DNA from: Gossypium raimondii
Lineage: Eukaryota > Streptophyta > Magnoliopsida > Malvales > Malvaceae
DNA: 64,000 bases
Direction of reading: 5' to 3'
NCBI RefSeq assembly: GCF_025698545.1
Contig: NC_068569.1
Location: forward strand, 15,562,001 to 15,626,000
Shown: in pieces, positions 21,982 through 54,669 of the stretch
Layout: every line of letters begins with the position of its first letter
How positions within the stretch are numbered: the first letter of the stretch is position 1
Translations under genes and position numbers: made by a program
Notes under the pieces: model-generated
The model's database searches: none
Told to the model about the DNA's origin: nothing
Seen by the model: only the letters and a program-made list of their open reading frames with translations

Positions 21982-24900
21982 ATGTCCGGCCCGCTCGATC
22001 GTTTCGCAAGGCCTTGTGAGTGGAACTTTTCTGCTGCCAAGTCTATGCTTCATGCTTATTAGTTTTTTTTCTTTAATCGTTACTTGCTGCATCGTTTGAA
22101 CTAATAATATTTCTGAATATCGATGAACTTGTTGTAGGTTTTGAAGGTATTGTTTGTAATGATGAAAGGAAAGACAGGAAATCGGATTTCGAAGTCTCTG
22201 AAGATGACAGGAGGACTAGAATCGGGAATTTAAAGAAGAAAGCGATAAAGGCATCGAGTAAGTTTAAACGTTCTCTTAAGAAGAAGAGTAGTAGGAGGAA
22301 AAGTGGTCTCTCTGTTTCGATTAAGGACTTTCGTGATATCGAGGAGCTGCAGACTGTTGATGCTTTCCGTCAGGCATTAATAGCCGAGCAGTTGCTTCCT
22401 GCTAGGCATGACGATTATCATATGCTACTGAGGTACGTTTAAAATCCACTATGCTTTTTATGTAGGATTGCTTCAACGATTTTTACCGATGCAAAATTGG
22501 TTTATTTGCACTGTGCTTGGTGGTTTTCTTGCAGATTCTTGAAAGCAAGGAAGTTCGACATCGAAAAAGCAAAGCACATGTGGGATAATATGATCCAATG
22601 GAGGAAAGACTTTGGTACTGATACTATTTTGGAGGTGATCCCATCTTATTGCAGGAATACTCTTACTTACTTACTGCATTAGATATTTGCTTCTATCCTT
22701 AGTTTTAAGGACATGTATAACTTTTTTTTCCAAGTTGTTATTCACTTGTTGCCTGCTTTTTTGTAGAGAAATACTGACCTTTTTTTGTTTTTTGTTTTTT
22801 TAATATTATTATGATTTAACCAGGATTTTGAGTTCAGTGAGTTGAATGAAGTGTTGAAGTACTACCCTCAAGGTTATCATGGGGTGGATAAGGAAGGAAG
22901 ACCGGTTTACATTGAATTGCTAGGAAAAGTTGAACCTGACAAGCTCATGCGAGTCACAACTTTGGAACGATATGTAAGATACCATGTGCAGGAATTTGAG
23001 AAGTGTTTTGCTATTAAGTTTCCGGCTTGCTCCATTGCTGCGAAGAGACACATAGATTCAAGTACAACTATTTTGGATGTTCAAGGCATGGTATGTTTTA
23101 TGTTGCTTCTTATATTTTAGGGTCCTCCCTGACATCATTTTATGATGGCCTAACAAGAGTCTATCACAGTATTTGCATGTTGATCACTTCCAGTCATTTT
23201 TGTTCTCAGGGATATAAAAACTTTACCAAGACTGCACAAGATCTTGTGAGGCGGCTGCAGAAGATTGATGGTGATAACTACCCTGAGGTAGCATGTTCGT
23301 CCTATTGCTAATTAATCTGCTCAGATATTTTGTGAATATAGCTTGTGTTTTCAGCATTGATAGAAATTTGTCAGGAATGTTTATTATGATTGCCCTTCTA
23401 CAGACTCTTTACCGTATGTTCATCATTAACGCTGGTCCGGGTTTTAAAATGGGCCTGAAAGCTGTCAAATCTTTTCTTGATTCTAAAACAGCTAGTAAGA
23501 TCAATGTAAGTTCAAAATCTTTGTATAATTTGGTTTTTTACTAGAGTTGAAGTATGGACTCTCGGTTACTGGAAGTTACCTCATTTTTGAAATTTCTCTC
23601 AGGTTCTGGGTAGCAACTACCAGAATAAGTTGCTTGAAATTATTGAAGCAAGGTAATAAAATGTTTTTGGTTGCTGATATGTGGGTTAATTCACATTTAG
23701 TTGTGCTGGAAAGTAAAGGGTTTTGATATATTGAACTTGGTTAGTGAGTTGCCGCAATTTCTTGGAGGTAGCTGCATTTGTTCTGACCAGGGAGGTTGTA
23801 TGAGATCAGACAAAGGTCCCTGGAAAGACCCCAACATATTAAAGGTGTAATATGCACTATGTGAATAAAATTGGGTTATTTTCCAATCTCCTTCATTTTC
23901 ATTGTTATCCCATACATGTTTTAAGCAATATGAATGCTATCTTAATGTAGATGATTGCCAGTGGTGAAGCACTATTTCCCAGACAGATTGTAACAGTTTC
24001 AAACAGTGAGGGAAGGGTAATTGCCTATGATAAGCCATGTTATCCTTTGGTACGGTTCATTATTTGTCTTTTGCAGTGCATATTATACCTTCTCAGCTTT
24101 GTATTTTGCATTGTTAGAATTTAATCAAATATTCTCTAATTTTTAAATGTTCATCCTGAATCAGATAAAGAGTAGTGACACATCTACTGCTGAGTCAGGA
24201 TCTGAAGTGGAAGAACTTGCTTCCCCTAAGAAAACTAGAAGCTATTTACATCCAATATTGGCTCCCGTTAGTGAAGAGGTAGATAGTTGCAAATTGCTTG
24301 ACAGATTTAAGTGGCATAAAAGGATTTCATTCGTTACATGCTAGATCCATAGTTTAAAAGACCACCTAATACCAGAATAGTCTTTCTTCTATTCAAGAGT
24401 GAGTATATAGGTGGATGCTTTGCTCACTGTATAAAATAACATGGTAACACCCTAAGAAGTGGAACTGCACTTTCAGTGTCAGACTATAAATTCTTCAATC
24501 TTGAAGTTGTAACAACATACCATGATATTTGTATAGGCTAGAATGGCTGGCAAGGTGATCTGTGGTGGTGGTTCGTCTGAGTATGGTGAGTATGTTCCCA
24601 TGATTGACAAGGTTGTAGATTTGGAATGTGAGAAACAAGTGTCACGTCAAACTCTATATACTTCTGAAGGTTAGCAAAATGAGCTACGTTAAAAGGTGTT
24701 TTATTTATTTATCTTTTCTTTTTTCTTTTTTACTTCAATGAAGCCTACTATCTTTAATTGCAGGGACTCCTCTGCTGCTGGAAAGGCAAACTCCAAAAGG
24801 AATCTATGGTCGTATCATTGCTATAGTTGTTGCCTTCTTGACTTTTTTAACATTTATCCAAACAATGGCATTGAATCTGATGAAAAAGAAGAGTTCAACT

Positions 24901-25621
24901 GATTTAACATGTAGCATTCCTGAGCAGCATATTGAACCAACGTACAAGGAGGAAACTCGTCCACCTTCTCCTGCTCCAAGGTTTACTGAGGCAGACGTCC
25001 TGTCATCTGTTGTAAGAAGGCTGGGTGATCTAGAAGAGAAGATTGAGATGCTGCAATCAAAACGATTTGAGATGCCTCATGAGAAAGAGGAGTTGTTGAA
25101 TGCTGCTATGTATCGTGTGGAAATGCTAGAAGCAGAACTAATTGCTACAAAGAAGGTAACCATTCTATGCTTCCAGCTCCGAGTATAGATTATCTCTTCC
25201 ATGCCGCGTTCTTAGGTTGTTACTTGTGAGTAGCCTTAAGAAGCATTTCAAGCCTGTCTTGATCTTTGTCCCAAACTGTTCTACTCCTTTACTAAATGAC
25301 CGGAGCCTGATGTAAGAGAAGGCTACAGTGGTACAGCACCGTTTGTTATTTGATATAAGGATTCCGTAATGATGCATGTTTTCTTGTTTCTTGACGACTG
25401 TTGTTTACATGAGCAGGCTCTCCATGAAGCTATAATTCGGCAGGACGAACTCCTTGCACGCATACAAAGTGAAGTAGTAGTCAAACCTGGGGTAAGTCAA
25501 AAGATAATTAAATTCAACCGTGAACTGATGCAATATGATTAAATTTTCATTAGTTAGATAAATGATTTGTACGTTTGCATGCATGATGCAGAGAAGGAAG
25601 CTGTTTTGCTGGTGCAAATGA
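21982..25621 (+). CDS. SFH: Sec14-like phosphatidylinositol/phosphatidylcholine transfer protein (SFH, Sec14-nodulin type)
   Basis: Fourteen exons join as 21982-22015, 22138-22432, 22535-22634, 22824-23090, 23210-23287, 23404-23505, 23603-23652, 23745-23844, 23951-24049, 24165-24278, 24537-24669, 24764-25155, 25417-25491 and 25592-25621, giving 622 residues. The start [15 protein letters not shown] is typical for plant SFH proteins. A basic Lys/Arg/Ser-rich segment (about 62-90) precedes the CRAL-TRIO N region ([35 protein letters not shown]). The lipid-binding Sec14 fold follows, with [52 protein letters not shown] and LPQFLGGSC. The C-terminal half has a hydrophobic segment at about 474-494, a coiled coil at about 545-610, and the nodulin-like tail RRKLFCWCK. 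It likely moves phosphoinositides at cell membranes and so shapes polarised membrane traffic. The member number within SFH is not assigned. Confidence 0.95.
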
Positions 25622-25943
25622 GAATGAGATGTATGTACCGAAAAGAATCGATCAAATGTTCAATAATATTTGTGGTGTGTGTATGCATGCATATTGAAGA
25701 TGGATAGAAAGCTTTGTTGGGGTGATATATCAGATTATCAGAGTCGAAGGGAAATGAGGTGTAAATAAAAATACCAAACAGAAGCGTGTAACAGTGTCAT
25801 TAGGACCGGCTGGTTTTGCAGTGGTGAATGGATATTTTTTTTGTTGGGTTAGTGCACATTTTAATGTAGTATAAAATGTTGTTTTGTTTTGTAACACAAA
25901 TATTTTGTGTTATTGTTTGTGTTATATCTTTTTGTTCATTGTG

Positions 25944-26130
25944 TTTATGCTATATATACATATCAGGTTTAAAGAATTATTTATTAACATATTAATAATT
26001 TATGCTACATAAATAATGCATTTATTTTATTTATGTTAAAATATATTATATTAAAAATGTTTATCACTGTTAATTTATGCTATATATACATATCAGGTTT
26101 AAAGAATTATTTATTAACATATTAATAATT
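25944..26130 (+). repeat. Perfect 57-bp direct repeat pair
   Basis: Copies at 25944-26000 and 26074-26130 are identical as read (TTTATGCTATATATACATAT and on to ATTAATAATT). They are separated by 73 AT-rich bases. The second copy ends about 260 bases upstream of the DHFR start codon. Confidence 0.9.
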
Positions 26131-26391
26131 GATTAAGGTGTTAAAAAAATGTAATAAATAATTACCTTTTTGTGTAAATAATATTATATTTGTGTAATAG
26201 TTTTCCTTTTTTCTAAAAAAAGCCAAAAAGAATGTAAATCGCAATGAAAAAAGGGTCAATAATATTTGCTGGACTCCCTCCCTGACCGTCGGTGTTTCAA
26301 ACAGAAGCAGAGCAACTGTTCTGGTCGGACTCTTTTGGTGGTTTGTTCCGATGTTCAAAGATTTTGGTTATTGGATCTCATTTTCTTCTCA

Positions 26392-27368
26392 ATGTTGACG
26401 CGTCTGCAGAGTAACAAACTTTTCTCCAAGGTTTGTATAGTTATATGGGGTTTCCTTTCTACACTTTCGCTTGCGTCGTATTATCTGACTTATTGTTCTC
26501 GCGATCTGCGTTTTTATTTTTAGGTTCTTCTGAGTCGTTACAAAAATGGGTTTCCCAATCTTATCTCTGGGTCTCAATTTTTAAGAGGTTTTAACGAGAT
26601 TGCAAAGCATGGGTTTTCTGTAATGTCGGGTGATAATCTACGGAGCCTATCTAACAGTGCTTCCCCGAGGAATTACCGAGTCGTAGTGGCTGCAACTCGT
26701 GAAATGGGAATAGGGAAAGATGGCAAGTTGCCATGGAGATTGCCTTCTGATCTCAAATTCTTCAAGGAACTTACAGTGACAACATCAGATCCTGAGAAGA
26801 AGAATGCTGTAGTAATGGGTAGAAAAACCTGGGAGAGTATTCCACTTGAGTTTAGACCTTTACCCGGTCGCCTGAATGTTGTCCTTACTCGTTCCCAGAG
26901 TTCTGATATTACAACTGGAGAAAATGTTGTAATATGTGGGAGCACTCCATCAGCTTTCGAACTATTAGCCGAGGATCCTTATTGTTTTTCAATAGAGAAG
27001 GTGTTTGTCATTGGCGGTGGCCAGATATTCAGGTAGATTTTTTAGTAAAAGTTGTTGAATTTCATTGCATATTTGTTGGGGAAAGATAATGTCTTGATGT
27101 TTTACAATGCAGGGAAACACTCAATGCTCCAGGTTGCGAAGCCATTCACATTACTGAAATTGGGACAAGCATTGAATGCGATACCTTCATTCCTTCAATT
27201 GACTCGTCTTGTTTCCAGCTGTGGTACTCTTCGAAGCCATTGGAAGAAAATAATGTCCGGTTTTCATTTGCAACTTATGTTCGTGTTAGATCTAGGACAA
27301 CTGATAATTATGAGGTAAAAGACTTGAGTTTCTTGCCCAGGATGATTGTTGAGAGACGAGATGAATGA
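26392..27368 (+). CDS. Stand-alone dihydrofolate reductase with mitochondrial-type presequence (no TS domain)
   Basis: DHFR reduces dihydrofolate to tetrahydrofolate with NADPH. Three exons join as 26392-26430, 26524-27032 and 27113-27368, giving 267 residues. The first 46 residues are rich in Arg, Lys, Ser and Leu with few acids (MLTRLQSNKLFSKVLLSRYK), as in a mitochondrial presequence. A second in-frame ATG at 26530+93 (position 26623, residue 47) could start a cytosolic form. The DHFR fold is complete: VVVAATREMGIGKDGKLPWR (65-85), the conserved Asp in LPSDLKFF, VVMGRKTWESIP (109-120), PLPGRLNVVLTR, VFVIGGGQIFR (to 183), IHITEI and CDTFIP. In plants DHFR is normally fused to thymidylate synthase. 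Here the frame stops at SFLPRMIVERRDE, just past the linker, and no TS sequence was seen before the next gene. It could be a functional single-domain enzyme, a regulator of the bifunctional isoforms, or a recent truncation. Confidence 0.9.
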
Positions 27369-28209
27369 GTCGATTAGTAAATACTACTGAGACTTGTTCA
27401 TGAAACTATCTCAAGTGGCAAGCAAGATCCTTGACTGGTTAGATGCAGAATTCATTTGCCTAGGTAGTCTTAAACTTTGGTTCTCTATGACTCTACTGCT
27501 CTTTGCCTTACATTTTATTGTTGTTGCTGAGGTTTAAATGTAAATATGAGCATCATCCCCAGTCCATGATGTGATTTGGTACAATGTAAGTCTATCTTTG
27601 CAGATCTTTTCATCTTCTTATATAACTAAGGTACTTACTTATGTTGTTGCTGTACCTTAGGTTGGTTCTTCTTTATCGAATTCATTCTTTTTTTTGTACA
27701 AAGATTATCCTGTCCATAGGGAATGCAGATTTTGGTGATCAATGAGCAAAAGAAAAGACTGCATCTTTGATCCATTGGGTTTTTAGGATGATTGTAAAGA
27801 GAAATAGAAAGATTCACTGCCCTTTTATTAGCATTCAATTATATTTCTCTCTGAAGCAATGCCAATGGTTGTCTTGTTGTATAGACAATTACATTTTACA
27901 TAAATATTGTACAAATGTTTGAGCAGCAAAATGGCGTTAAGATAATGGCACCTCACTCAAAAGAGAATTGCAGGAACTGTTGTGCTTTACTTGCATCAAA
28001 CACATTCAATTATATGAATCTAGTTTGTGTTAGTATATTGCCTGGTTGAGAAGTGAAGGGACGGTTTTGGGGTTGTGCAGGTTATTTATTTATGTTTTTT
28101 CTACTTGCGGTTTGAGCAATCACAGTTTAGGCCTTCAAAAGCAATTTTGCCTTTGCATGGAGAACCCTTTTCTTCTTTTTTTTTGGGTTTTAGGTAGGTG
28201 CTTTGCCAC
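27369..28209. other. DHFR 3' flank
   Basis: The 3' UTR probably lies within the first few hundred bases. I looked in all frames for thymidylate synthase motifs (DRTGTGT, the catalytic PCH region) and saw none. Nothing else is supported. Confidence 0.55.
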
Positions 28210-28400
28210 CTGTCAAGGCCGAAGAGGTAATCCATTATCTCAATAAAAGCCCATAAGGATGAAAAAGCTAAAAGCAAGGCAGCCCAATGATCTGTTATTG
28301 AAGCCTGGTAATGATAAAACTCAAAGTAATCATTCTCATGCTGAATATAGTCGGGAACGGTAGGTAGAAGCAAGGAAGCAACATTAATAATAATAGCCAC
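28210..28400 (-). pseudogene. Orphan exon-like open segment, membrane-protein character
   Basis: On the minus strand a TTTTAG acceptor opens exactly at 28400. It is followed by 63 stop-free codons and an AG/GTGG donor at 28210/28209. The translation has two hydrophobic stretches (VAIIINVASLLLPTVP and AALLLAFSSLWAFIEI) around an acidic, aromatic loop (DYIQHENDYFEFYHY). Codon use is gene-like. I do not recognise the family and found no partner exons, so it may be a relic of a moved or decayed gene, or a chance frame. Confidence 0.3.
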
Positions 28401-29304: not shown

Positions 29305-29901
29305 TTACAGAATGGAACAATGATGGTAAAGATCATCATGCACAACGTACCAAACTTCACATCTCCGGCATGTCTTTGGAGAGTATATCACTACATCTTT
29401 CCGGCAATCCTTCTTCTCATCCTTCTTCTCATCCTTCTTCTCCTCTTTTGCGGCCCCTATACTTACGATCGATGCGTGTTTACGGAACTTCCTGACTTTC
29501 TTAATGATCTTAAACGGATCAGCTTCGCCGGTAACCATTACCGTATTTTTCGATGGATCGAGGGTGATGGACGTTATCCCCACTAGCTCTGAAATTACAT
29601 GCATTACCTTCTGCCTGCACTTTGGACACAGCAGCTCCACTGACAGGATTGTTTTCTGCAACACCCAAAACAAAGAGTCAGATTCTATGGCACTTTGTCC
29701 CTGCTCAGAACAATAATATCCTATGACAAATAGAAGTACTGTAGGATGTCAGTGCAGGCTGCAGGGAGAGAATGGCAGAGCAGGAATTGATGAGTTCAAA
29801 ATTAAATGCTTCCACAGAACAAACATCAAATTACATATATAAAAAGCGCAAATATAGGAAGCAAAATAGGTATCAAGGGAATGGAATGAAACCTTCGACA
29901 T
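29305..29901 (-). CDS. Heavy-metal-associated isoprenylated plant protein (HIPP-like)
   Basis: Two exons on the minus strand, 29901-29893 (just MSK) and 29655-29305, give a 119-residue protein. The HMA fold begins at once: KTILSVELLCPKCRQKVMH carries a CPKC metal-binding motif (C-x2-C). It continues with the HMA beta strands (GITSITLDPSKNTVMVTGEA, DPFKIIKKVRKF). A Lys/Glu-rich spacer with repeated EEKKDEKKDEKKD follows, then a Cys-rich tail (SPKTCRRCEVWYVV). The protein ends in CSIL, a CaaX box whose final Leu favours geranylgeranylation, so membrane or nuclear-membrane attachment is likely. The very short first exon is typical of this family. Metal specificity cannot be read from sequence. 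Such proteins act in metal handling and stress responses. Confidence 0.88.
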
Positions 29902-31858: not shown

Positions 31859-34744
31859 CTACTTGCACTTACCAGTACAACCTTCAGTAAACAAACCGTC
31901 TTCTAATGCGTATCTTTGATCTCGTACACTTCCATTGGAGTTTATTGTAACAGCTTTATCTGTTTCATGCTCAGTTTTCACCATCTGAGAATAGCAGCTA
32001 ACAATTTTCTTATCTAACTCGTAATAAGCCTCCATTTTCTTCAAGGGTTTCAGATCCAGATCAATGAAATACACCTAGAAATTTGCAATTTAGATAAGAT
32101 ATGCATGTAAAATGAGAACGAAGTAAGAAAAGCTGCCATAGATGACTTTGATTTCAGCCCAAAAGAATTTCTTGTTAAACAAAGAGCTATATAATGATTT
32201 TTATAGGTTTATTTATAAGGACTGAGCAAATTATCATGGCCCTAATGGAAATTATATATGCAAAAGAATCACAAAAATTTGACTTCAAAATCAACCCATG
32301 CATCAAAAACATATTTTGATGGATCAATTTCATATGCTATGACGATACTAATACAATACTATAGCAATAATGATATAGAGTATGAGTCAAAAGAAAATGG
32401 CATTGGAATCTACCTTGCACTCAAAAGCTTGGTTAGTTGATCCTAGATATACAGTATTGTGAGAAGGGAGTCTACCATCTTCCTTTGGTCTAAAACTAAT
32501 CATCAGACTACAGTCCTTCGCAGTTGCAGCTATCAGATAGTCCTTTACAATCTTCAAGCTTTGATCCAATGGAATGGAGTGCAAAGAGGTATAGCGGCAT
32601 GATAATTTATCTTTACACAATTCTCTACAGACCATACAAGGTTGAGAAATTATGTTGTAATAAGCATGAATCGCCCCCTCAATGTCATAAGTATCAAGCT
32701 TCTGAACTTCAAGAAGTTGTTCTAAAGCACCAGAAATATAAATTGTCTCAGCAACAAGCTGTAGAAAACTAGTTGTGCGCTGGCCATTATCTGCCTGAAT
32801 GACATTCTTAAGTATATCTTCAAAGGCCTCACCAACCTGAACAGTAGTGCTGTTCGTGCCACCACCCAAACCCCCAAATACAATAGAACCATTCAGAAAT
32901 ACACGGAAATTGTTCTGAGGAGTGGCATACAGAGCTTCAATAGCTTTTTGTATCCCTTCTCTGGATCCAGAGAATAAATCCAGCGGATTATATTCACTAT
33001 ATTCTGATATCTGAAATATTTTTGAAATGTCACAGATATTTCAACAAAATGGCCATATTGGCCAATATATGGGTCAGAAAGTGCTACAAAGAGACACCCT
33101 TCCCTTGCATGTTGACACAGCAACAACTTAGCACCCAGAAAAACCCCCTACTAATATGAAGATACATAAAGTTACCTCTTGATTATGCAACTTCAGTGCT
33201 TGGTGCATTCTAAACCGAACTACATTTCTCTTAACAGCATTTTCTTCAGTTATGAATCTTGAAAATGGGAGAAATCCACATTTGGGCTACTTCATCGAAA
33301 CAATTGAAGTTAAAACTTGGTGAAGCAAATGAAAATGAAGAACACGCCAAAAAGACAGTTGATTACACAAAGAAATTGAGGAAAAAGGGCATACGAAGAA
33401 ATCTACCTTTATCTCAACAGTTATACATGGTTCACCTTTAAGATTACCTGAAATAAAAGAAAGTACAACCATATAAAAAACAAACGGAACCTTTGCTATA
33501 TTTAAACTAATTTTAATCTAGGTTCATCTTTACTTAGATTTAACTAATACTCCGGCATATGAGCTAAGTTCTAGGAAAACAAAAATGATGAAGACTGCAA
33601 GCATGTCTTTTAGTCTTCCCAAATTGTTGAATATTTCCCACATCAATTACTCAGTGAGAGCTACTTCCCAGTCCTTTACCTACTTCCAGTCTGCACAAAG
33701 TAACATAAGATCTATAAATTTCCAAACAGATTACACACTGAGAGCCACTTCCTAATCCTTCCCTTACTTCCAAACCTATAGCAGGAAAACATTTTGTCAT
33801 CTGCATTCTAGTAAAAGTCCTCTAGTAGTACTTTGCCCTCACAATGATAAGATGGAAGGAAGCTATAAAACTATTCAATTAAGCTCAGCTGGATAGGATT
33901 ACATAGTCATGCCTTCCTCAGTCTATAAGAGTGACAAAGAAGATATCATCCCTTCACATTGATAAGTACAACATGAGACCAGCAGAAGGTCAAATTACCA
34001 TCGGGAAAGATCGAATGATCAGATAAGATTAGCACAGAATCACGATTTACATCAACCTGGGATGAGTGAACTCGCCAAGCAGGCCGGTGACAAGTCACAT
34101 TCTTCTCAACGGACTTAAGGAATTCCTTAGTAACAAGAACACGAATCTGCCAAAGTCAAAAGACCAAAATCCAAAAGCGATTACAAAGCTCATCGAACCA
34201 AATTAACTAAATCAGAATTATAATAACTAGAACATAAATAAATACCCCAACATCGACATGTTTTGGGCCTAACAATGGGATCATAACATGTTTGACGTAA
34301 AGCTGTTCTAGAATCTCTCTGTTTGACGACGCCGTTAGCTCCTTATTTTCTCGCCAAAGAAGCCGTTCATGCGTTGTTAAAGCTCTGCCTTCTTTCACGC
34401 CACTGTTGCCGTTCCGTTGCGACTTTTGTATTCGCAGCACTTTCCCAATCTTATAATAATTATTTTATCAAAAAAAAATCCAAAAAGAAAAGAAGAAGAA
34501 GAAGAAGAAGAAGAAGAAGAAGAAGCAAGCAAGCATGAATATTCACAAATTGAATTTTATACTCCACCCCCTTCAAATTCGAAATTTCAATGGACTAAAT
34601 TTAAAGCTCCGAGAAAAAAGAATCAGTTGAAGTACTTACAAATGCGGGAGACGATCCAGTGTAAGCGAGAATAAGATTAGCAGCTCCTTCTCCTCTATAG
34701 ATCCAATCAACTGCATCCTTTTCCTCTAAAATCACTTTCTCCAT
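31859..34744 (-). CDS. IPK1: Inositol-pentakisphosphate 2-kinase
   Basis: IPK1 adds the 2-phosphate to inositol pentakisphosphate, making phytate (InsP6) from InsP5 with ATP. Seven exons on the minus strand run 34744-34640, 34449-34246, 34146-33999, 33447-33407, 33286-33176, 33010-32414 and 32074-31859, giving 473 residues. Family marks are all present: EEKDAVDWIYRGEGAANLIL at the start (the GEGxANL nucleotide loop), MIPLLGPKHVDVG, the signature EIKPKCGFLP formed across an exon junction, RFRMHQ, and YLIAATAKDCSLMISF. In the last of these, Asp369 corresponds to the catalytic Asp of the plant enzymes. The C-terminus includes YFIDLDLKPLKKMEAYYELDKKI. A GTAAGT donor-like site three codons before the stop could allow an alternative 3' end. 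The gene looks intact; role in phytate synthesis and phosphate signalling is inferred from the family. Confidence 0.96.
34491..34525 (-). repeat. (TTC)n microsatellite in IPK1 intron 1
   Basis: Nearly twelve trinucleotide units (AGA on the plus strand) fill much of the 190-base first intron. They read as a pyrimidine tract in the transcript. Confidence 0.92.
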
Positions 34745-45492: not shown

Positions 45493-47931
45493 ATGGAAGT
45501 AGTGCAAGTGCTTCACATGAACAAAGGGAATGGCGATACTAGTTATGCAAAGAACTCCACTGTTCAGGTTTTTTTTCGCCATTAAAACACCATGATTTAC
45601 ATGTTTTCCCCATTAATTCCTTTTTTCCCTTAACTCTCTATATCTCTTTGCTTCTTTTGATTTGTTAGAGGAAAATCATATCTTTCGGGAAAACCATCAT
45701 TGAAGAAGCATTACTAGAACTCTCAAGCAACTATGATATAGATAGCATGGGAATCGCAGACTTGGGTTGCTCCACGGGACCCAACACCTTGTCGGCTATC
45801 TCGCAGATAATGGACATAGTACGAGCGACGAGCGGTCACCTCAGGCGCCGGGTGCCGGAGTTTAGGCTTTTCTTTAACGACCTTTATAGCAACGATTTCA
45901 ATTCCTTATTCATGTTGTTACCGGCATTCTACAAGATGCTGAAAGAAGAGAAGGGTATTGGATTGGCACCCTCCCAGTGCTTCATATCGGGTGTCCCAGG
46001 TTCTTTCTACGGCAGATTGTTCCCTAGCAACAGCCTCCACTTCGTCTACTCTTTTTCCAGTCTCCATTGGCTCTCCCAGGTTAGTGCCATGATAATCCTA
46101 AAATGATGGTAAAATTTTCACTTAAAACTCTCATGCACGTTGTACAACAATGCTTGTTCTCATCAAACTCAACGTTGGATAGATTAACAAAACTGTTTTA
46201 GTGATTTATCATATTATACCAAAAATGAAGAAATTAGATTACTGGATAAGTAATGAGATCCACCTGCAAATTCGATCATTGTTGCATCATCTTATACAGG
46301 GCGAAACTATAAAAATTTTAAGTGTCCAAAATTAAATTATAATTTGTATGATATTAAAATATAATTTTATTATTTTAATAATTTTTAAAAGATTAAATTA
46401 AATTTTTATATTATTAAAAGGGGTTAAAAGCATATTTTACTTTTACTTTTTAAAGGTTTTTTTAGGGGGTTTTCGCCCCTCATCGTACAGTTTGTGGGAC
46501 AACTTTTCCTAGTGACCACAATTTTCAATATGACCCCTAGGGATGAATATCCCCGAAATATCACTGATTTTCGCTCTCTTGTTTTTTTTTTTAACTTTTT
46601 TCACCGGTAAAAGGATCTGTCGTAAGCAGGCTCAAAAATGCAAAATTGCTTTTTAATCCCTTGAATATTTATAAAGTTTTTAGTTAATTTAATGATAAAA
46701 TTATATTTTGACCTCTCCTAATATTTAAAATTAAATTATACCTTCTCCAAAAATAAAAAATTATAGTTTAATCCCTTGAAAACTGTAAAATTTTACATCA
46801 ATACAATAATGAAATTATATCTTTAGCTCTTTAAAAAATTTATAATTCAAATTCAGCCACTTTAAAAAAGAAATTTGGGCTTCACCCCTGTTGCAATCTA
46901 GTTAGTAACAACCAAAACATGTAATATAGCAAAGCAATGAAACCATGGATTTACATCAAAATATGGAATTGCACCAAAAGCTTCTGGCAACATTGAAGAA
47001 AATCCTAGTATTATTGTTGATTAAGTGAGTACTTATAGATTTTATATTTTGATGTAAGTGTTAATTAAACATAGCTCTAGTGAATATATAAAAATTTGGT
47101 GGGGGTGCTTGGATGTGGCTAAGGAAATAATAAATGCTGAATTTAATATCTTCAGGTTCCGGTGGGGCTGGAGAGCTATGCCGTGAAGCATTTAAATAAA
47201 GGAAAAGTGTATATCTCAAAGAGCAGCCCGCAAAGCGTGGTGAATGCTTATTCATCGCAGTTCCAGGCTGATTTTTCACAGTTCATAAAGTCACGTTCCC
47301 AGGAGTTGGTCCCAGGTGGCCGCATGGTCCTTTCTTTCCTGGGCAGGAAATCCATTGATCCCACAACCGAAGATGGGTGCTATCAGTGGGAGTTGTTAGC
47401 TGAAGCATTGATGAGCCTGGTCAAAGAGGTACAACATTACTTCAAGCATTGATTAAGTGATTGGCGAAAGTGGGAATTGAGGTTAATTTCAACTTTTTTT
47501 AACACATATTGTTGCAGGGTTTAATTGAAGAGGACAAAGTAGCGTCATTCAATGCACCGTACTATGCTCCGTGTGCGGAGGAACTAAAGGTGGAGATTCT
47601 AAAGGAAGGGTCATTCATAATTGATCGGCTGGAAGCTTTTGAAGTGGACTGGGATGGAGGCGCGGTTGCTGACACCCATAATGAACAAGGGAAAATGATG
47701 GTGGGAGAGCGAGTGGCTAAAACCATCAGAGCGGTGGTGGAATCGATGTTGGAATCCCACTTCCGACTGGGACAAGATACGATGGATGTTTTATTCAGCA
47801 AGTTAGCAGAGATTGTTGGGAATCACTTGTCAAAGACTAGAACCAAGTACATCAATTTCGTGATTTCACTGGTTAGAAAGGCTAGTCATATCAACTTGGA
47901 AGCTCAGCCTATGGATGTTTTTCTTTTTTGA
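45493..47931 (+). CDS. SABATH family carboxyl methyltransferase (salicylate/jasmonate MT-like)
   Basis: Enzymes of this family move a methyl group from S-adenosylmethionine to the carboxyl of small acids such as salicylate, benzoate or jasmonate, giving volatile esters. Four exons join as 45493-45567, 45669-46079, 47156-47428 and 47518-47931, giving 390 residues, the usual size. The start [20 protein letters not shown] leads to Gln25. The SAM site is [12 protein letters not shown] (54-65), followed by [12 protein letters not shown] and [16 protein letters not shown]. The substrate-pocket motif is [10 protein letters not shown], with His158-Trp159. Salicylate enzymes usually have Met at the His position; His is seen in jasmonate and several other SABATH enzymes, so salicylate is not the safest guess. 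The C-terminal part ([37 protein letters not shown]) is complete. The substrate is unresolved. Confidence 0.93.
46299..46890. mobile_element. MITE-like insertion in SABATH intron 2
   Basis: The 1076-base second intron holds an AT-rich block bounded by CAGGGCGAAAC at left and GGGCTTCACCCCTG at right, which are roughly complementary. The interior has repeated phrases such as TTTAATCCCTTGAA. A similar GCTTCGCCCTGAG end occurs near 21452-21465, suggesting a family. Target duplications were not certain. Confidence 0.4.
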
Positions 47932-54539: not shown

Positions 54540-54669
54540 AAACTATGCTATGATCATGTAGAATAATGATTTCAAGCTATAACCAAAGTTTGCATGAAGC
54601 CGAGATAGAAACTATGCTATGATCATGTAGAATAATGAATCCAAGCTATAACCAAAGTTTGCATGAAGC
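54540..54669 (+). repeat. 61-bp tandem duplication
   Basis: Units 54540-54600 and 54609-54669 (AAACTATGCTATGATCATGT to TTTGCATGAAGC) differ at two positions by my reading. Eight bases separate them. It lies about 570 bases beyond the stop of the minus-strand DUF4408 gene. Confidence 0.9.

Follow-up and report, generated by a model that had tools for sequence, protein, structure and literature searches.

In plants and other bikonts the fusion of DHFR to thymidylate synthase (TS) is regarded as a fixed character, and a 2019 survey describes bifunctional enzymes in all of the plants and algae analysed (PMC6451014). A gene in the 64-kb stretch of DNA analysed here (C5:15562001-15626000, hereafter the window) ends at the point where such an enzyme would pass from DHFR into TS, raising the question as to whether a plant DHFR can be encoded on its own. 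The original prediction for this locus was a stand-alone DHFR that stops just after the DHFR-TS linker, and this is borne out by a 267-residue open reading frame that contains one DHFR domain and closes with a stop codon at 27366-27368. We have examined the structure of this gene, its relatives across the 281 contigs (750,779,957 bases) of the genome, the fate of its TS half, and the selection acting on what remains.

Gene structure and predicted product

The gene lies on the forward strand and has three coding exons. The first (26392-26430) begins at a long-form ATG at 26392, opens a 46-residue N-terminal extension and is followed by a GTTTGT donor at 26431; the second (26524-27032) holds the remainder of the extension, another in-frame ATG at 26623 (MSGDN...) and the first two thirds of DHFR; and the coding part of exon 3 (27113-27368) supplies the end of DHFR and a shortened linker (EVKDLSFLPRMIVERRDE) before the TGA stop. 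Both introns (26431-26523 and 27033-27112) are of the GT-AG type, and the predicted 267-residue protein is unbroken. As had been claimed, the motifs LPWR, SDLKFF, GRKTWESIP and VIGGGQ all fall within it (4 of 4), and it terminates in LPRMIVERRDE where plant DHFR-TS continues into TS, the TGA being confirmed. A donor-like site within exon 3, GAG|GTAAAAG at 27314/27315, lies upstream of this stop and could yield an alternative DHFR tail.

Pfam searching identifies a single DHFR_1 domain in the protein (1.8e-39) and, with a threshold of E<=0.001, nothing from any further family; the PF00186 match scores 135.4 bits relative to a curated cut-off of 25 and covers positions 4-159 of the 159 in the profile. 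The nearest solved structure is Arabidopsis DHFR-TS1 (8dae, 1.2e-85), with which 126 of 180 DHFR-domain residues are equal. We also compared 27 positions of E. coli FolA. Twenty are identical in the window protein and seven differ, and at 25 of the 27, five of the differing seven among them, the residue is that of AtDHFR-TS1. The identical residues include W22, D27, L28, F31, T46, S49, R57, G95, G96 and T113 of FolA (W84, D89, L90, F93, T115, S118, R129, G177, G178 and T197 of the window protein), and FolA Y100 and R98 are replaced by Phe and Gln, which are unlike both FolA and AtDHFR-TS1. By these comparisons of sequence the key catalytic and cofactor-site residues are intact, and the gene appears to encode a monofunctional DHFR that is probably active.

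A single-sequence AlphaFold model of the protein has a pLDDT of 31, which is too low for use. Chains of 238-241 residues that contain the DHFR part alone, although named DHFR-TS, have solved structures (3rg9 and 2bl9); these are protozoan enzymes. Rfam and tRNA scans gave 0 matches, no E2F-like site is present at 25600-26600 (there are 19 across the whole 64-kb window), and three pattern matches among viral contigs include no relative.

Paralogues and genomic neighbourhood

The genome was searched both with the DHFR protein and with the Pfam family, and every first-look candidate was scored (5 of 5 in the former case, 6 of 6 in the latter). Each search points to three places: the window gene, a gene on C1 (P1) and a gene on C3 (P3). 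Both P1 and P3 are bifunctional, with DHFR exons and, after exon 3, eight TS exons that are open over the residues examined, and the exon 2/3 split of the window gene is identical in both. Two hub genes of upland cotton are annotated with both domains (PMC9408450), and their names suggest that they may correspond to the C1 and C3 genes.

Fragments of TS, complete with introns and 94-98% identical to the C1 gene by blastn, are also found at C11:11697106-11698072, C13:55935261-55936241, C10:38018154-38018464 and C3:35585655-35585899. Their breakpoints are shared in pairs, two loci corresponding to P1 4988-6504 and the other two to P1 5420-5868, which is the pattern expected if pieces of the gene had been captured and then spread by a mobile element. 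We considered these four loci as TS-only partner genes, but the blastn matches make captured fragments the likelier interpretation.

The upstream neighbour of the window gene is a Sec14-like SFH gene on the forward strand (21982-25630; the limits are approximate, placed by eye, and some exon ends are loose), with a CRAL_TRIO match of 9.1e-07 at 22815-23117. Arabidopsis DRTS genes likewise adjoin SFH genes, which are described as head to head with them (PMC5464667), and P3 is also head to head with an SFH gene about 10 kb away (C3:61483-61499 kb). The SFH/DHFR pair in the window is arranged head to tail, which, set against the head-to-head order at C3, suggests that one gene of the pair may have been inverted. 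No SFH match was found in the 29.5 kb surrounding P1. The window and the C3 locus further have in common genes for a SAM carboxyl methyltransferase (45669-47928, forward strand, in the window; 61472-61475 kb on C3), and no match was found at either the C3 or the C1 locus for the window's heavy-metal-associated (HMA) domain protein gene (29305-29748) or inositol-pentakisphosphate 2-kinase gene (32390-33040), both on the reverse strand. The neighbourhood shared with C3 favours an old duplicated block with loss of TS in place over a transposed partial copy.

Two repeats were noted in the window. In the likely promoter, downstream of the SFH gene and ahead of the DHFR start, a 60-nt direct repeat (25944-26003 and 26074-26133) is 98% identical in its two copies, which lie 130 nt apart; the other, at 54540-54669, consists of 1.9 copies of a 69-nt unit with 96% matches.

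Relics and probable loss of the TS half

No intact TS was found in the 64-kb window, which extends 36.6 kb downstream of the gene, when tblastn was run at E<=1 with the Arabidopsis TS as query, and no C5 locus is among the 32 genome TS matches listed at E<=1. In control searches at E<=0.01, planted 35-residue TS pieces, back-translated from a soybean-like protein, were recovered in 160 of 160 cases when undecayed, and in 156, 103, 21 and 2 of 160 at decay of 0.1, 0.2, 0.3 and 0.4, respectively. With the stop at 27366 the predicted polypeptide contains no TS, and the gene as modelled does not encode a bifunctional DHFR-TS. The claim that there is no TS motif downstream thus holds for an intact TS, but has to be modified to allow for relics, which occupy 27369-27463 and resume from 27729.

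The nearer relic, on the forward strand at 27369-27463, corresponds to the TS-coding part of exon 3 and has in-frame stops at 27375, 27378 and 27432 beyond that at 27366. Measured from the start of the stop codon, the relic exon-3 donor is reached after 98 nt, compared with 96 nt in P1 and P3, and the relic exon ends AG|GTAG where exon 3 of the paralogues ends FGCQ|GTAAT. Read in the DHFR frame, 27381-27419 gives ILLRLVHETISSG, for which the Arabidopsis counterpart is LYLNMVEDIISNG; under a frame- and position-matched null, 113 of 41188 window places do as well when only the Arabidopsis query is used, and 27 of 41188 when a soybean-like query is added. Global alignment to the paralogue tails finds other window pieces that are as good in 13 of 3340 cases for P1 and 2 of 3340 for P3. 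The local alignment scores of 20 and 27 are exceeded elsewhere in the window (33 and 36), and the exon-3 relic is weak on its own.

Relic intron sequence follows at 27464-27728 (forward strand), running from the 5′ end of intron 3 (AG|GTAG) through the 3′ end of the last intron (GGAATGCAG), and leads into a relic of the last TS exon (ILxIN...) at 27729-27828 on the same strand, which is gapped and contains stops; the local alignment stops at 27808. This last-exon relic ranks top of 636 tiles on both strands, with a score of 70 against P1 (next separate tile, 43) and 49 against P3 (next, 40), and 69 of 94 aligned bases are equal to P1, with 8 gaps. The tile ranking was used in place of blastn E-values, which are not reliable for this comparison: a match to AT-rich intergenic sequence reached 1.6e-6 where the last-exon relic gave 6.0e-7. 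The two relics are separated by 265 nt, as against 1682 nt in P1 and 1518 nt in P3, and the seven exons that separate exon 3 from the last exon in both paralogues are absent from those 265 nt. It is most likely that the seven internal TS exons were deleted and that the flanking TS pieces have decayed.

Several other approaches were uninformative. A frameshift-tolerant alignment of the whole Arabidopsis TS to 27369-28300 is indistinguishable from noise (best score 43, mean 44 in 300 shuffles), and nhmmer with a profile sampled from the Arabidopsis TS finds no TS in the window and also misses the relics. A C-terminal relic placed initially at 27699-27755 was not significant, being equalled in 89 of 600 null draws, and the paralogues put the exon start at 27729.

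An assembly error at 27366 had been named as something that would overturn the prediction, but a misjoin there is unlikely, since relic TS sequence follows the stop at roughly the spacing seen in the paralogues. The shared exon 2/3 split, the relic exon-3 end, the relic last exon and the SFH neighbour together indicate that the gene is descended from a bifunctional plant DHFR-TS.

Selection on the DHFR domain and the probable age of TS loss

The proposed dN/dS check was run and indicates that the DHFR part is not decaying neutrally, with ratios of about 0.1 to both paralogues, alongside a TS half of its own that has decayed. Over 180 DHFR-domain codons (NG86) the ratio is 0.099 to P1 (bootstrap 95% limits 0.046-0.162), 0.097 to P3 (0.042-0.161), and 0.095 between P1 and P3 (0.042-0.182). 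The linker, at 0.84 to P1 and 0.53 to P3 (24 codons) and 0.435 between P1 and P3 (41 codons), is by this measure less constrained than the DHFR domain. The dS of the window gene to P1 and P3 is about 1.4, which is near saturation, so that dates are rough.

Counted as minimal base changes, the exon-3 relic helix gave 8/39, as against 7/39 for Arabidopsis versus the soybean-like sequence; the relic thus seemed no more diverged, and the dating was redone with own-genome DNA. A closed-form formula was discarded, since the ages that it returned for the observed distances were negative, substitutions being masked by optimal gapped alignment, and relics were instead simulated from the paralogue exons and passed through the same aligner, the relics totalling about 200 nt. 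The last exon alone fits best at a neutral distance near 0.3 and the exon-3 tail alone near 0.5-0.6; both relics together fit 0.2-0.3 in four further parameter sets, for an overall estimate of about 0.2-0.5 substitutions per site. A lower limit, at roughly 5%, falls at about 0.1-0.2 over five parameter sets: it is about 0.2 or 0.15, or, when decay is modelled most harshly (a high indel rate, and 25% of amino acids changed before the loss), lies between 0.09 (2.7% of runs) and 0.15 (14%).

For the DHFR domain, dN in excess of the P1-P3 ratio implies a neutral distance of 0.002, with an upper limit of 0.09. The lower limit for TS stays above this value in all five parameter sets, the two nearly meeting under the harshest. 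When an unselected DHFR copy was simulated with indels (2000 runs per distance), the open reading frame and splice sites survived in 13.9% of runs at a distance of 0.02 and 0.65% at 0.05, and in none of 2000 at 0.1, 0.15, 0.2 or 0.3; with substitutions only, 4.3% remained intact at 0.1 and 0.15% at 0.2. The greater distance of the TS relics than of DHFR makes it most likely, from the comparison of one genome, that the DHFR half was protected by purifying selection after TS was lost. Moreover, as the relic distance of about 0.3 exceeds half of the P1-P3 dS (0.36/2), the loss may predate the P1/P3 duplication, an order that the lower limit of the distance does not require.

Alternative explanations

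We consider it probable, at about three chances in four, that a DHFR-TS gene lost TS in place and that a selected, probably active monofunctional DHFR was kept. The locus might instead be a young pseudogene, a whole dead DHFR-TS copy in which the DHFR half happens so far to have escaped damage. The TS half is indeed dead and broken at several points, and under the harshest model its lower limit of about 0.1 almost meets the DHFR upper limit of 0.09. The DHFR half, however, has kept its introns, an open frame and dN/dS of 0.097-0.099, the TS limit stays above 0.09 in all five parameter sets, and neutral survival of the DHFR frame and splice sites falls to 0.65% at 0.05 and to none from 0.1 when indels are allowed; a young pseudogene is therefore improbable. 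We give the least credence to a gene that is fused after all, with TS exons far downstream or lost in assembly and transcripts that are bifunctional. The donor-like GAG|GTAAAAG at 27314/27315 is a good one and could in principle serve such splicing, but no TS match at E<=1 occurs across the 36.6 kb downstream (the control having recovered 160 of 160), C5 is absent from the 32 listed genome TS matches, and the exon-3 stops precede relic TS, with the relic last exon in order 265 nt on.

Very unlikely, too, is the truncated regulator that had been suggested, a non-catalytic DHFR-like protein that acts upon the bifunctional isoforms in the manner put forward for Arabidopsis DHFR-TS3. The TS domain, through which DHFR-TS usually dimerises, is missing, and with the catalytic residues intact this makes a DHFR-TS3-like role less likely, even though selection on the fold would look alike. 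Inhibition by DHFR-TS3 is reported in two papers (PMC6451014, PMC7073030), and AtDRTS3 resembles the window gene in being a divergent family member that adjoins an SFH gene. The window gene nonetheless does not fit an inhibitory paralogue of this type: AtDRTS3, as described (PMC5464667), keeps a TS reading frame and has most of its substrate-binding sites substituted, whereas the window gene has no TS and retains the key DHFR residues.

N-terminal extension and possible targeting

The second in-frame ATG at 26623 (Met47) leaves before it a basic extension of 46 residues, with 7 Lys/Arg, one Glu and no Asp, and with an amphipathic stretch that was equalled in strength in 141 of 5000 shuffles. 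On this argument from composition the long form would be directed to mitochondria, which are the site of folate assembly in plants, and a shorter form starting at Met47 may remain cytosolic. The extension of AtDRTS2 is 47 residues, and the long isoform is mostly predicted to be mitochondrial and/or plastid (PMC5464667).

Discussion

The structure of this gene can be accounted for by an old member of the plant DHFR-TS family in which the reading frame would have been shut at the domain boundary by stops and indels and the seven internal TS exons would have been taken out by a deletion, the order of these losses being conjectural. The DHFR half, under purifying selection, would then have persisted as a lone DHFR able to fold by itself, which would reduce dihydrofolate with NADPH and supply tetrahydrofolate untied from thymidylate synthesis, and the C1 and C3 genes would provide TS. 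Folate reduction would in this way be separated from dTMP synthesis. The two activities of plant DHFR-TS are described as largely autonomous in one study (PMC5464667).

The gene shares its DHFR domain with Arabidopsis DHFR-TS1 (8dae) and with the C1 and C3 genes, and with the latter two also the exon 2/3 split and the remains of the exon-3 end, but it differs from these bifunctional genes in lacking TS, in a frame closed at the domain boundary and in a shorter linker. Monofunctional DHFRs of animals, fungi and bacteria likewise have one DHFR domain and no TS, although the window gene would differ from them in origin, having arisen secondarily when a fused plant gene lost its TS, relics of which are present. 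DHFR-only products have been predicted in Arabidopsis as the splice isoforms AtDRTS1.2 and AtDRTS3.2 of DHFR-TS genes (PMC5464667); in these the short form arises through a retained or partly retained intron of a gene that still encodes TS, whereas the window gene can make DHFR only. No report of a gene-encoded stand-alone plant DHFR was found in the literature, as judged from titles and the starts of abstracts in a search whose coverage lay outside most subscription journals. This plant probably encodes, on its own, an enzyme that in plants has been regarded as existing only in fused form.

A broader proposal is that Malvaceae have an old gene-encoded monofunctional DHFR, having lost TS before the C1/C3 duplication, that is kept for tetrahydrofolate, above all mitochondrial, independent of thymidylate synthesis and the cell cycle. 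We put this forward tentatively, at somewhat less than even odds. If TS was lost before the P1/P3 duplication, lone-DHFR orthologues are predicted in other Malvaceae, and an old Malvaceae lone DHFR, if true, would depart from the published view in which plant genes without exception encode DHFR and TS as a fusion. Knocking out the window gene alone would be a way to test the reason for the fusion of DHFR to TS, and a lone plant DHFR bears on both folate biofortification and antifolate herbicides.
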